Shown: positions 50,441 through 55,346 of the stretch, piece by piece
How the letters are laid out: every line of letters begins with the position of its first letter
Position numbering within the stretch: the stretch's first letter is position 1
Origin: Lyngbya sp. CCAP 1446/10
GTDB taxonomy: Bacteria > Cyanobacteriota > Cyanobacteriia > Cyanobacteriales > Microcoleaceae
NCBI RefSeq assembly: GCF_026130175.1
Contig: NZ_JAIGNI010000147.1
Location: 1 to 64,000 of the forward strand
Direction of reading: 5' to 3'
DNA: 64,000 bases
Position numbers and translations under genes: made by a program
The notes under the pieces: generated by a model
What the model saw: the letters and a program-made list of their open reading frames with translations, nothing else
Told to the model about the DNA's origin: nothing
Database searches by the model: none

Positions 50441-50502
50441 CTATATCTCTTTCAACGTCATTCTGCATCCCCTAAAAACGGGGATTTTGCCAAGTATTTG
50501 TA

Positions 50503-50757
50503 AAGTTATATTACAAAAACCGAAATTTTGCATAAAAACTCCGACGCACTCCAGATAGATAAGTAGCGGCGCAAGTTCAGCGAGTTTGACCCACACCTTG
50601 TGTGAAGTTATATTACAAAAACCGAAATTTCGCATAAAAACTCCGACGCACTCCAGATAGATAAGTAGCGGCGCAAGTTCAGCGAGTTTGACCCACACCT
50701 TGTGTGAAGTTATATTACAAACCGCATAAAAACTCCGACGCACTCCAGATAGATAAA
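50503..50757. repeat. 102-bp tandem repeat (2.5 units) upstream of the mosaic protease gene
   Basis: Two complete 102-bp units (50503-50604, 50605-50706) and a third, partial one from 50707 that has lost ~12 bp near its start and ends at GATAGATAA. Units begin AAGTTATATTACAAA and contain ACTCCGACGCACTCCAGATA. The partial unit ends 36 bp before the ATG of the large gene, so the array sits in its promoter/leader. A 100-residue minus-strand frame through the array is judged an artefact. Confidence 0.9.
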
Positions 50758-50793: not shown

Positions 50794-53700
50794 ATGTCTA
50801 CTACTTCTATCGGCAATCTCAACGACAACTATTTCTCGATCGACTTTGCGGGAAAAACTGACCCCATCGATACCTATCGCTTCAATCGACTGAATACAGG
50901 AAGTTTCCGTGTCACCGCCGAAGGTTTCACTTCCGTGGTGGGGATGCAACTGCTTGACAGTGACGGAAAAGTCGTCAAAGACATCGCCACCGACGGCACA
51001 AATTCCGGTACATTTAGCATCGATAATTTGGGTGCAACAAATTATGCACTCAAAATTTCTGCACCTTCGCGCGATACAAATTATCAAGTTAGTTTAACAC
51101 CAGACGGCAAAGTTGACCCGCTGACAGGTTTGGGAGTTGATTCCGGCTTTTTCGCTACAGATTCTACGGGACAAGTTGGCTTTGACTGGTTGCACGACGG
51201 TGGCAATTATCAAGGAGAAGTTGCCATTTTCAGCGTGCAGGGCATGGAGAAATTAACTCCAGGTTCTCAGGAGTTTATCAAAGAAGCGGCAAGACGAGCT
51301 CTGAGCAATTCTACCTTTGGTCACGTAGTAATTTCCGACCCTACAGAAGGCGCAAATCCGCTGTTTGACGGTCTTTTAGGAGAGGACAACTATAACGAAG
51401 GAACCTACAGCGGCCCGAAAACATTTGGGATGAAACCGGGTGAGGCTTTTGCTGTGATGTTGGTGCCGAACGCTACTGTGCAAGATATCTTTAATAAGCC
51501 CAATGCTGGCGGTGACAAACGCCCGCTGCTGTCGTTATCTAGCACTAATCCAGATGATGCTTGGCTGTACGGTCAAATAGCTGATGTTACTGGCACCGGC
51601 AAGGCCTTTGCGATGGAGGATCAGCGGGTTGATACGGGTTCGGATAAAGATTACAACGATTTGGTTTTCAAGTTGACCGGTGCGACTGGTAAGGCTGTGT
51701 CGATCGACAAAGTAATCAATCCGAGTAAGGATTGGACTAAACTCGATGGCGGCAAGAAATTGATCGAGTATGTCACTCCCACACCGCCAGTAGCCACAAC
51801 CCCGCCTGCTGTTTTACCGCCAGTTGAGACAACACCACCAGTTGCTGTTGTACCGCCGGCAACACCGCCAGTAGCGACAACGCCGCCTGCTGTTGTACCG
51901 CCAGTTGAGACAACGCCGCCTGCTGTTGTACCGCCAGTTGCTGTTGTACCGCCAGTTGAGACAACACCACCAGTTGCTGTTGTACCGCCGGCAACACCGC
52001 CAGTTGAGACAACGCCGCCAGTTGCTGTTGTACCGCCAGTTGAGACAACACCACCAGTTGCTGTTGTACCGCCGGCAACACCGCCAGTTGAGACAACGCC
52101 GCCAGTTGCTGTTGTACCGCCAGTTGAGACAACACCGCCAGTTGCTGTTGTACCGCCAGTTGAGACAACACCGCCAGTTGCTGTTGTACCGCCCGCTGTA
52201 CCGCCAGTTGAGACAACACCGCCAGTTGCTGTTGTACCGCCAGTTGAGACAACACCGCCAGTTGAGACAACGCCGCCTGCTGTACCGCCAGTTGCTGTTG
52301 TACCGCCAGTTGAGACAACGCCGCCAGTTGCTGTTGTACCGCCTGTGATGATTACAGGGCCTGTACTAATAAAACCTCCGATCGCCCCAACGACTCCCTC
52401 AGAACCACCTGCGATCGACCCACAACCGCCTGTCACTGAACAATCGCCAGAGACTAAACCGCCTTTTGAAACTATTTTGCCGCCAGCGCCCGATCGCACT
52501 TTTGTGGGCATCATCGATACTGGGTTTGCTGCGAAGAATGCCGATTTGGATTACTCTAAGGTGACGATGGGGCGCGATCGCATCGACAAAGATAGCAACC
52601 CGTTGTTAAATGCTGGAGAAGGAAACGAACACGGCACGTTTAGCTGGGGTTTGGTAAGCGCAATTCAAGGCAATGATAAAGGGATTGATGGCTATAACGA
52701 TCAGGCGAATGTTTACCTAAGTCGGGCGATTGGTTCTGGGGAATGGGATTTAGCTTTAAATGATTTTGTGAGTGAAGCGAAGGGACAAAAGAAGAAGAAT
52801 GCGATCGCCCTGCTTCCCCTCGATTTAACTCAAAAGAATGCTGACGGTAGCATTACTACTCGTTACGAGTTTACAGCGCGAGAGCGGGCTGTGTTGGAAA
52901 ATGCGCGTCAAAGTGGTGTGCTGTTGGTTGTGGCGGCGGGTAATGATGGCGGTGTGATGTCGGTTTTGGGTCAATCTTCTCAGGAGTTTGAGAATATTAT
53001 CACGGTTGGTTCGTCTAATGGAGTTGGGCGATCGGATTATTCGAGTTACGGCTATGGTTTGGATATTTTAGTGCCCGGTGGTTCGATCGACAATCCGACT
53101 TTATCTACGGTTGGTGATGATGTCGGCCAAATGGCGGGAACTTCTGCGTCGGCGGCGATTGCGGCGGGGATGTTGTCTAAGGTTTGGGAAAGCAATCCGG
53201 CTTTGAATGCTTCTCAAGTGATTGATGTTTTGACTGGAAGTGCGATCGATTTGAAGGCGCCCGGATGGGATGAAGAAACGGGTTTTGGGGTGGTGAATTT
53301 CAATAAGGCTGTGGATTTGGCCAAGGAAACCAAGCCACAAAGTTACACCCCTAGTCCTTTCTTGAGTCCGACAACTTGGGGCTTAGAAGGAAAAGTCACG
53401 CCTTGGGAAAGGGCGACTTATGACATAAAGACAGGAAGTTTTACATCGATTATTTGGTCAACTACTGGTGTAAATCTTCGTACTGGGACTAATTTGAGCG
53501 ATAAAAGCGATGTGAATGTGGGATACAAAGGTCAGACTTTCACTTTCGATGCTTGGACTTACGGGGAAGCAGTCAAGGATATCACCACACAAGAGCCAGA
53601 TGCTTTGTGGTTTCGGACAAATTACAACGGCAAATCTTACTGGGTACCGAGTGCATTCACGAATGGCTACCCGCCTGGAAACCCGCCCTTACTACCTCCA

Positions 53701-54885
53701 ACAGAGAATCCCGTTGTTGTGCCGCCCACAGACAATCCCGTTGTCGTGCCGCCCACAGACAATCCCGTTGTCGTGCCGCCCACAGACAATCCCATTGTCG
53801 TGCCGCCCACTTCAATTAATCTCAACGGTCACAACGTCGGCGGCAATTTCTATCCGGTTTTCCAGAATTATCAAGGAACGCTGGGCAATCCCACTTCTGA
53901 TGTCATCAACTATAATGGTGCCAGCTATCAGCTATTTGATAAAGGATCAATTGTTAGCAGTAAAAATGGAACTTTCCCGCTTTATGGTGCGATCCGTCAG
54001 AAATTCTTGAAAACAGGTGGATTGGATGGCTGGTTGGGTGCTCCGAAGAGTGCGGAAAAGGGCCAAGGGGATGGAACGCTAATCCAATACTTTGAGAAGG
54101 GTTACATTTCCTGGAATGGCGTTAAGGCGATCGCTTACAAAGAAGGTACTGCTTTGCCATCTGTATCTGTTCCGTCTATATCCAAGCCTAATCAGCCAAT
54201 CTCTAGCGACGATCGTTGGTGGGATTTGCAGACAGGTGATTCTTTGCTTTATTCTAATCAAGAAGAGCCGAAGAATAACTCTAAGTTATACTCTGAACTT
54301 CAGAAGATTGAACGCAGTCAACAAGTACGTCAAGTGTATGTAGAGCTTTCCAAAGCAATTTTTCAAGGTCGCTTAATCGAATCAGATTCTGGTTATGCTT
54401 ATGACAAAGTATACATCGATAAAGCAGTAGTAGATGGTAAAGTTGGCTGGATTCACACTGGAATAGATATCTCAGCTAAGACAACAGATAATATCTACTC
54501 ACCAGTCGATGGCACAGTTGTTCGAGACATACCTAACTATCATAGTAGTGGCAGGGCTATTGTTGTTCAGGAAAAAGTAGACGGAAAGCCAGTAAATCGT
54601 TTTTGGTGGTATTTACATCTAGCAAGTGGTACAAGTATTGACACAAACGTGAAAGCTAATACAACAAAAATTGGTAATCCTGGGAATATACCAGGTATGT
54701 CTCCTCACCTTCATTTGACTGTTGCAACTATACCAGATGAAAATGCAGCTTTAAATGTCAATAAAGACTGGTACAAAAACTCGCCTGGTGTCACTCAAGA
54801 ACAAGCTTCGATTAATGCAGTTACCGCAAAAACGATGAGTCCTTTACAGGCTTTTTGGGAGGCACAAAAGAAAATTACCAGATAG
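50794..54885 (+). CDS. 1363-residue mosaic protein: PPC-DUF4114-subtilase-SH3-LGFP-M23
   Basis: GAGGTG at 50784-50789 supports this start. Order: ~5-105 PPC-like beta domain (DTYRFNRLNTGSF); ~115-300 DUF4114 (AFAVMLVPNA, DYNDLVFKLTG); ~327-565 repeated PPVETTPP/PPVAVVPP linker; ~568-865 subtilase with complete triad D575 (IIDTGF), H613 (EHGTF), S784 (AGTSAS) and oxyanion N717 (AAGNDG); ~885-960 SH3-like segment; ~965-1005 four DNPVVVPPT repeats; ~1010-1110 LGFP-like repeats (GWLGAPKSAEKG); ~1200-1325 M23 (LytM-like) peptidase with H1221, D1225 and H1305-L-H1307 zinc ligands. No N-terminal signal peptide is visible; export by type I or another route is plausible. The M23 part seems more AT-rich than the rest. 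Likely a surface or secreted enzyme; target unknown. Confidence 0.9.
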   Translation: MSTTSIGNLNDNYFSIDFAGKTDPIDTYRFNRLNTGSFRVTAEGFTSVVGMQLLDSDGKVVKDIATDGTNSGTFSIDNLGATNYALKISAPSRDTNYQVSLTPDGKVDPLTGLGVDSGFFATDSTGQVGFDWLHDGGNYQGEVAIFSVQGMEKLTPGSQEFIKEAARRALSNSTFGHVVISDPTEGANPLFDGLLGEDNYNEGTYSGPKTFGMKPGEAFAVMLVPNATVQDIFNKPNAGGDKRPLLSLSSTNPDDAWLYGQIADVTGTGKAFAMEDQRVDTGSDKDYNDLVFKLTGATGKAVSIDKVINPSKDWTKLDGGKKLIEYVTPTPPVATTPPAVLPPVETTPPVAVVPPATPPVATTPPAVVPPVETTPPAVVPPVAVVPPVETTPPVAVVPPATPPVETTPPVAVVPPVETTPPVAVVPPATPPVETTPPVAVVPPVETTPPVAVVPPVETTPPVAVVPPAVPPVETTPPVAVVPPVETTPPVETTPPAVPPVAVVPPVETTPPVAVVPPVMITGPVLIKPPIAPTTPSEPPAIDPQPPVTEQSPETKPPFETILPPAPDRTFVGIIDTGFAAKNADLDYSKVTMGRDRIDKDSNPLLNAGEGNEHGTFSWGLVSAIQGNDKGIDGYNDQANVYLSRAIGSGEWDLALNDFVSEAKGQKKKNAIALLPLDLTQKNADGSITTRYEFTARERAVLENARQSGVLLVVAAGNDGGVMSVLGQSSQEFENIITVGSSNGVGRSDYSSYGYGLDILVPGGSIDNPTLSTVGDDVGQMAGTSASAAIAAGMLSKVWESNPALNASQVIDVLTGSAIDLKAPGWDEETGFGVVNFNKAVDLAKETKPQSYTPSPFLSPTTWGLEGKVTPWERATYDIKTGSFTSIIWSTTGVNLRTGTNLSDKSDVNVGYKGQTFTFDAWTYGEAVKDITTQEPDALWFRTNYNGKSYWVPSAFTNGYPPGNPPLLPPTENPVVVPPTDNPVVVPPTDNPVVVPPTDNPIVVPPTSINLNGHNVGGNFYPVFQNYQGTLGNPTSDVINYNGASYQLFDKGSIVSSKNGTFPLYGAIRQKFLKTGGLDGWLGAPKSAEKGQGDGTLIQYFEKGYISWNGVKAIAYKEGTALPSVSVPSISKPNQPISSDDRWWDLQTGDSLLYSNQEEPKNNSKLYSELQKIERSQQVRQVYVELSKAIFQGRLIESDSGYAYDKVYIDKAVVDGKVGWIHTGIDISAKTTDNIYSPVDGTVVRDIPNYHSSGRAIVVQEKVDGKPVNRFWWYLHLASGTSIDTNVKANTTKIGNPGNIPGMSPHLHLTVATIPDENAALNVNKDWYKNSPGVTQEQASINAVTAKTMSPLQAFWEAQKKITR

Positions 54886-55073: not shown

Positions 55074-55346
55074 ATGACCGATGAAGAACTGAAGCAACTA
55101 ATAGAAAGCAACGCTAGAGCAACTCAAGCTATGTTAGATAACATGGCAGAAGCAAGACTCGAACGACAGGAGCTTCGAGACGGAATGGTACAATTGCAAA
55201 ATGCTGTCGTGCAATTGATTAACGTTCAGTCAGGAATTGCTAACTTGCTGACTTCTCTGGATGAAGATCGTCCAACGATGCTGAGAAAGCTCACTACAAT
55301 TGAAAACAAACTCGATCGACTTCTAGGGCAAGAAAATGCTCAGTAA
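55074..55346 (+). CDS. Small coiled-coil protein, hypothetical
   Basis: 90 residues, almost entirely helical: MTDEELKQLIESNARATQAM, a charged middle (RLERQELRDGM), a hydrophobic heptad (VVQLINVQSGIANLLTSL) and a final helix KLTTIENKLDRLLGQ. This looks like a cyanobacterial short coiled-coil protein family that also carries MTDEELKxLIESNA at the start. There is no membrane segment or enzyme motif. An extended -10 element at 55030 supports expression. It opens the small-gene island. Confidence 0.75.
   Translation: MTDEELKQLIESNARATQAMLDNMAEARLERQELRDGMVQLQNAVVQLINVQSGIANLLTSLDEDRPTMLRKLTTIENKLDRLLGQENAQ

Follow-up and report, generated by a model that had tools for sequence, protein, structure and literature searches.

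Does a cyanobacterial protein with two complete protease active sites in one chain represent a singular bifunctional protease, or one version of something more general? The question is raised by a gene at positions 50794-54885 of the forward strand in a 64,000-nucleotide stretch of DNA from Lyngbya sp. CCAP 1446/10 (contig NZ_JAIGNI010000147.1; this whole stretch is called the window below). A first-pass annotation had proposed that its product joins a subtilase (Peptidase S8) to a zinc metallopeptidase (Peptidase M23) in a single bifunctional chain. We found that the M23 domain is one of many exchangeable C-terminal enzymes, here called cargo, on a conserved S8 chassis, so that the notion of a singular bifunctional protease had to be abandoned. 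The gene is probably one allele of an exported antibacterial polymorphic effector family of filamentous cyanobacteria, wherein the subtilase would free the C-terminal enzyme.

A gene with two intact active sites

The open reading frame (ORF) was unbroken over 1363 amino acids (aa), with its ATG preceded by GAGGTG and with an in-frame stop 15 bases upstream of that ATG, which excludes that a signal peptide had been overlooked upstream; the N-terminus itself had no hydrophobic stretch and no Sec-like signal. An orthologue found in another genome (G016; G numbers denote genomes and L numbers loci) was open across its whole length with 82% identity to the window protein, showing that the window frame is not an assembly error and thereby settling a doubt raised at first. 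The features of the gene and its immediate surroundings are as follows.

50499..50756, upstream tandem repeat, period 102, 2.6 copies (repeat scan)
50794..54885 (+), chassis-cargo gene, 1363 aa, without signal peptide (ORF)
50869..51060 (+), PPC-like N-terminal domain, residues 26-89 (Pfam, sub-threshold: 15.5 bits vs cut-off 25.9, E 0.032)
51430..51681 (+), DUF4114, residues 213-296 (Pfam, E 2.9e-19)
51817..52347 (+), Pro/Val/Thr-rich repeat linker, residues ~342-518 (sequence, repeats)
52498..53289 (+), subtilase S8 domain, residues 569-832, with D575, H613, N717 and S784 (Pfam, E 2.1e-25; alignment)
53377..53673 (+), post-S8 segment, residues ~862-960, with a TTWGxEGxVTPxER motif followed by an SH3-like stretch
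53692..53810 (+), second Pro-rich linker (27-base tandem repeat at 53701-53810)
53881..54030 (+), best LGFP stretch, residues 1030-1079, one of two (Pfam; LGFP E 7.2e-11)
54094..54190 (+), zone of DNA identity collapse versus other-cargo relatives, residues ~1101-1133 (DNA comparison)
54451..54726 (+), M23 cargo domain, residues 1220-1311, with H1221, D1225, H1275, H1305 and H1307 (Pfam, E 8.8e-7, 29.5 bits, just above cut-off 28.7; alignment)
55074..55346 (+), first downstream ORF, 90 aa, no immunity family recognized

With regards to the domain context, the DUF4114 and LGFP modules that had been proposed were recognized by Pfam, and PPC was seen only sub-threshold; the PPC-like part of a paralogue with 65% identity (E 0.00019, see below) likewise fell under the Pfam cut-off. 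The SH3-like label on the post-S8 stretch was given by eye, from relatives scoring SH3_3 after S8, and the window protein itself had no SH3_3 match in Pfam.

The subtilase residues, with D575, H613 and S784 being catalytic and N717 forming the oxyanion site, were borne out by Pfam and by an alignment of homologous segments from 61 ORFs, where the corresponding columns held Asp in 59, His in 60, Asn in 60 and Ser in 60. The departures came from L048 and L148, the ORFs of which end or begin inside S8, and from a degenerate copy in L128. Since the catalytic residues were complete in 58 of the 61 segments, selection appears to maintain the S8 protease irrespective of the cargo. Triad, oxyanion Asn and family profile all agree with membership in Peptidase S8. 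The L128 gene (5370-10337, -) is a chassis relative with an extra S8 match behind the first, the triad of which is degenerate (Asp to Ser, His to Gln).

The zinc ligands of the M23 domain (H1221, D1225, H1305 and H1307) were also confirmed and, together with the expected second catalytic residue H1275, which we add here, were invariant in 9 aligned relatives. The profile of these aligned M23 domains matched solved M23 peptidases at 2e-13, and membership in Peptidase M23 is supported by the HxxxD motif, the second His, the HxH motif and the profile, with the window protein alone barely passing the cut-off. The predicted structure of the M23 part had a mean predicted local distance difference test (pLDDT) score of 75, its first 40 residues being poor. 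Both protease sites are thus intact in a single chain without a signal peptide, as first proposed. The accompanying suggestion that the chain cuts a protein as well as a cell-wall peptide is plausible for both sites, the overall pattern suggesting that S8 may serve in cargo release or maturation, with M23 as the effector.

The period-102 repeat directly upstream of the gene (92% matches) could be regulatory; an ORF read through it has matches upstream of several orthologues.

Replacement and range of the C-terminal cargo

Close orthologues, drawn from a search of 61 genomes of the family, matched the window protein well to residue ~886 or 1133, often diverging afterwards. The clearest case was the pair G016, with M23 as cargo, and G017, with a C39-like domain. 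Their DNA identity was 98-100% at codons 51-650 and 82-97% at codons 651-1100, save one bin of 62% in the Pro-rich linker, fell to 30-54% in the cargo (codons 1101-1350), and returned past the stop to 88-96% at codons 1351-1600, with a last bin of 60%. A second case was G025 compared with the window, with 81-92% DNA identity at codons 1-350, 80-87% over most of the S8 part, lower values in the linkers, 76-82% around LGFP and 10-48% in the cargo, which is a different one; beyond the G025 stop, after some 230 bases, identity resumed at 92-96%. Because conserved DNA flanks the divergent cargo on both sides, the C-terminal cassette has been replaced in place. Replacement of the C-terminal domain among close relatives, by which polymorphic toxins are recognized, is therefore a property of this family.

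The surrounding genes were also compared. G016 and G017 agree in having ppx and ubiA as their direct upstream neighbors and share several genes downstream; G036 has ppx and ubiA upstream, with its contig ending soon after the gene; G025, G026 and G030 have ubiA some 6-7 kb upstream and share downstream genes; and only small flanking genes were found within the stretch fetched for G032, G028 and G029. The cargo of 11 close orthologues, including the window protein, was M23 in six (three divergent forms), C39-like in two, CHAP with a sub-threshold SLT in one, and unrecognized, predicted as beta-rich, in two. Two of these 11 were without N-terminus at contig starts, and the fragments L048 and L049, having no C-terminus, were left out. 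The beta-rich cargo of L044, L045, L119 and L147 was not recognized, and its structure model had a mean pLDDT of 68.

To define the breadth of the family we used an S8 chassis profile built from 15 S8 segments, at a threshold of E<=1e-60. It matched in 34 of the 61 family genomes and in 20 of 386 genomes sampled evenly across the phylum, with at most 5 candidates scored per genome in the latter sample, where weaker matches were distant and lay within very long frames. All 20 of those genomes belong to the class of the window's genome. The carriers include Microcoleus, Tychonema, Oscillatoria, Argonema, Laspinema, Roseofilum, Spirulina, Leptolyngbya, Limnothrix, Okeania and Calothrix, and in Calothrix sp. 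NIES-4105 the chassis gene (L237) sits on plasmid2, a possible vehicle for spread.

With L048, truncated by a contig end, and a duplicate of L138 set aside, the 61 ORFs comprised 59 distinct ones that reach past S8. We scanned 53 of these singly, leaving out L121, L130, L138, L141, L144 and L146; in part of the scans C-termini longer than 1000 aa were trimmed to the final 1000 aa, and the second ORF of L120 runs off its contig end. A wall-lytic domain followed S8 in 42 of the 53, a count that includes C39-like domains as well as L038 and L136, the M23 of which falls under the Pfam cut-off. M23 was found in 20. The occurrence of S8 and M23 in a single ORF thus recurs in other cyanobacteria, so that an architecture first called unusual is in part a common one. 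Other wall-lytic cargo comprised CHAP, SLT, GH19, GH25, GH108, Amidase_3, Hydrolase_2, Pesticin and a VgrG3-like domain, giving at least 11 lytic families on the chassis. Toxin-type C-termini were seen in three of the 53, namely a colicin-E3 type ribosomal RNase (rRNase; PF09000, 2.4e-10), Ntox44 (2e-16) and CdiA_C (5.2e-5). The rRNase stood alone, without a wall-lytic domain, and the other two were terminal domains in wall-lytic ORFs, with CHAP followed by Ntox44 and M23 followed by the weak CdiA_C. Known toxin families were accordingly found for the family (PF09000, Ntox44) and not for the window allele.

A second set was scanned too. Here 81 relatives were sought, 80 returned and 76 loci parsed, leaving out the weak non-cyanobacterial L263-L266; the 75 ORFs were 31 duplicates and 44 new ones, 33 of which ended in a stop codon and extended 150 aa or more beyond S8. 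Scanned over at most their last 800 aa and tallied per family, these 33 C-termini held M23 (14), CHAP (8), Amidase_3 (4), Lipase (3), GH19 (3), GH25 (1), a C39-like domain (1) and phage lysozyme (1).

The gene lies on contig C57 of a 6.75-Mb genome that also holds a second chassis gene, on contig C97, with a product of 2187 aa comprising PPC-like, DUF4114, S8, CHAP, LysM and SleB-type Hydrolase_2 domains. A third relative of 2446 aa couples a similar N-terminus (65% identity) to a further S8 that is accompanied by a P-domain and beta-propeller repeats; this DUF4114 subtilase (L007, 4204-11544, +) is followed by filamentous-haemagglutinin-like, ShlB-like and TPR proteins, all three named by eye.

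Candidate orphan cassettes near chassis genes were noted elsewhere, and none was identified in the window. Beside the G030 chassis gene stands an orphan 372-aa M23 protein with RTX calcium-binding repeats (L041, 12171-13289, -; 28.8% identity to the window M23 part over 222 aa). In G019, a 100-aa PASTA-domain ORF with a tail that looks toxin-like by eye (L045, 4396-4698, -) lies 840 bp downstream of the chassis gene and is followed by two small genes (133 and 151 aa), look-alikes of which occur behind other chassis genes.

Export, immunity and competing explanations

The reading that we favor starts from what was observed, i.e. the architecture, the intact active-site residues, the in-place replacement and the range of cargo. 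The conserved delivery chassis would consist of a PPC-like/DUF4114 or alternative basic N-terminus, extended linkers, the subtilase and SH3, LGFP or LysM wall-binding modules, carrying an exchangeable C-terminal effector that in the window allele would be an M23 peptidoglycan endopeptidase. The protein would exit the cell via a route needing neither a Sec signal peptide nor a contractile sheath, its wall-binding modules might anchor it at the surface of the target or of the producer itself, and S8 would cut the protein's own flexible linkers, thereby setting the C-terminal enzyme free. M23 could then cleave peptide cross-links of neighboring competitors, or alternatively clear the way for a toxin that lies behind it in the chain, an order seen in the M23-CdiA_C and CHAP-Ntox44 versions.

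Several points weigh against such an antibacterial function. Export, self-cleavage, target and killing are steps that we infer from sequence. No effector was recognized in 10 of the 53 scanned C-termini, and the C39-like domain may be inactive on wall peptides. The CdiA_C match is weak and under its cut-off, and its ORF (L148) begins inside S8, amid a stretch with an in-frame TAG, so that this gene may be broken. The window protein, being without a Sec-like N-terminus, has no recognizable trafficking signal. No immunity family was recognized downstream of the window allele, and by eye no immunity gene was evident downstream of most wall-lytic versions or behind the Ntox44 version. Finally, in the three other genomes with DUF6980 above its cut-off, the family of a candidate immunity gene described below, no evident toxin gene was found in the stretch inspected, which spanned up to 1.5 kb on either side.

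A simple hydrophobicity screen of N-termini was passed by one of 60 ORFs, some of which were cut at contig starts, and a C-terminal type-1 export signal is unlikely because the C-terminus is the variable part. The window's genome gave no match to the contractile sheath family PF04984, and neither did 24 of the 34 chassis-bearing family genomes (overlap counted by hand; many of the genomes are drafts), and an extracellular contractile injection system (eCIS) was on these grounds rejected as a required export route. A C-terminal ending resembling NPLKAFWELK was dropped as an export signal, being by eye confined to the M23 subgroup. In many chassis proteins the N-terminus is basic and bears, as judged by eye, a short motif such as FILEPILTPSG or FILEKIVTPSAG. 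A DNA pattern for this FILE-type motif occurred at 23 places in 21 of the 61 genomes, with one match for the reversed pattern; the places in G000, G058, G059 and G060, which may be chance, were left out of the examination. The motif was also present in four proteins of the same genus outside the S8 set, one of which was scanned and had no S8, with the other three looking alike. These (L180, L181, L182 and L183) and many chassis proteins have FILExIxTPS after a basic stretch and no signal peptide, and the motif is a possible unrecognized sorting signal; in the literature, the string FILEPI matched unrelated words in the 10 of 30 matches listed.

The candidate immunity gene, of 91 aa and with a DUF6980 domain, lies 24 bp downstream of the G024 rRNase ORF on the same strand. 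DUF6980 was above cut-off in just 4 of 291 genomes of the order, and the copies in two of the three other genomes contain a stop. Its proposed role rests on one adjacency, since no toxin gene evidently adjoins it in those three, and DUF6980 was not established as a dedicated immunity family. The rRNase domain PF09000 exceeded its cut-off in 18 of the 291 genomes (L277-L295); the frames that carry it are mostly short (80-130 aa) and stand-alone, and may be orphan cassettes or separate toxins. Behind the window gene, the 90-aa ORF at 55074..55346 has a 94% identical homologue behind the G025 gene, which carries different cargo. Small downstream genes identified by eye (CopG/MazF-like, GIY-YIG and 81-aa ORFs) follow differing cargo alike and were dropped as immunity candidates. 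It is possible that immunity is provided through altered wall chemistry or by unrecognized small genes.

The most serious alternative, which we nevertheless regard as improbable, is that the producer uses these proteins on itself as autolysins, be it in trichome breakage, in hormogonium release or at septal passages, S8 being the activating protease. Most of the recognized cargo being ordinary peptidoglycan hydrolases, the lack of an evident adjoining immunity gene for most hydrolase versions and the confinement of the phylum-sample matches to one class would all suit such a house-keeping role, as would the named carriers, which we take to be mainly filamentous genera. However, a self-directed function hardly needs at least 11 lytic families on one chassis or cargo swaps between near-identical genes, rRNase, Ntox44 and lipase cargo would be unexpected, and the chassis S8 was found at E 1e-60 in just 34 of the 61 family genomes.

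Less probable still is a nutrient-scavenging or predatory exoenzyme, in which S8 and the wall hydrolase would digest dead or prey cells and the variety of cargo would reflect diet. Two hydrolases accompanied by wall-binding modules, lectins, and chitinase-like and lipase domains fit digestion, but the rRNase, Ntox44 and CdiA_C-type domains, acting in the cytosol, are ill-suited to it, as is a small candidate immunity gene behind the rRNase gene. That metagenome assembly has joined sequences of different strains and so produced the apparent swaps is very hard to believe, for although G016 and G017 were matched to records marked as metagenome-assembled genomes, the close orthologues in G025, G026 and G030, matched to records not so marked (Tychonema LEGE 07203, Microcoleus LEGE 07076 and Tychonema BBK16), carry C-termini unlike that of the window, and the C39-like cargo recurs in two genomes and M23 in six.

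Going beyond the favored reading of an antibacterial effector family, we put forward with considerable reserve that filamentous cyanobacteria may deliver polymorphic antibacterial effectors by an undescribed system that does without a signal peptide and has as its mark PPC/DUF4114 or a short N-terminal FILE(P/K/R/E)I(L/Y/V/I)TPS, wherein the internal subtilase would release the warhead and the wall hydrolase would drill the target wall, either being itself the killer or serving as an entry module for a nuclease-type toxin behind it.

Relation to known systems and biological meaning

In excerpts of Zhang et al. 2012 (PMC3482391), subtilisin already figures among the proteases that process polymorphic toxins exported by the Sec and Photorhabdus virulence cassette (PVC) routes. 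The systems described in those excerpts share with the present family a constant N-terminal part, a built-in releasing peptidase, wall- or carbohydrate-binding modules and C-terminal toxins exchanged by recombination. Unlike them, this family has no Sec signal or known delivery leader and few recognizable immunity genes, and its recognized cargo is mostly peptidoglycan hydrolases; the DUF4114-S8-LGFP chassis was not met in the same excerpts. The metallopeptidase toxins of PVC/eCIS type, also covered there, likewise have a constant protease with variable C-terminal effectors, a notable share being without immunity genes, whereas the protease here is S8 and the window's genome has no sheath match. 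Cyanobacterial calpain-type proteases have PPC or DUF4114 N-terminal to the peptidase (excerpts of PMC4631099), as in this chassis, but are cysteine proteases, and cargo exchange was not met in the excerpts.

In NCBIfam the S8 part came closest to the type VII mycosin subtilases, scoring 76.7 bits and thus far under the equivalog cut-off of 278.75. The M23 part shares HxxxD, the second His and HxH with lysostaphin, zoocin A and LytM, the M23 profile matching lysostaphin at 1.5e-12 and zoocin A at 3.8e-7; unlike these M23 bacteriocins and endopeptidases, it forms the tail of a protein with a long S8 chassis and no Sec signal. No description of the chassis was found in open-licence literature on polymorphic toxins, cyanobacterial wall hydrolases or DUF4114, as judged from titles and abstract starts of the papers listed. 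The kind of system is hence already known, with subtilisin-type processing proteases of polymorphic toxins being in print, and the chassis with its bias for wall hydrolases looks new.

To our knowledge, little is known of protein weapons in cyanobacteria. These organisms form dense mats, and near-identical genes differing only in their effector would allow a direct test of strain competition therein. Following these proteins could also reveal the export route to which their lack of a signal peptide points, and nature has assembled, in this family, a collection of modular wall hydrolases.

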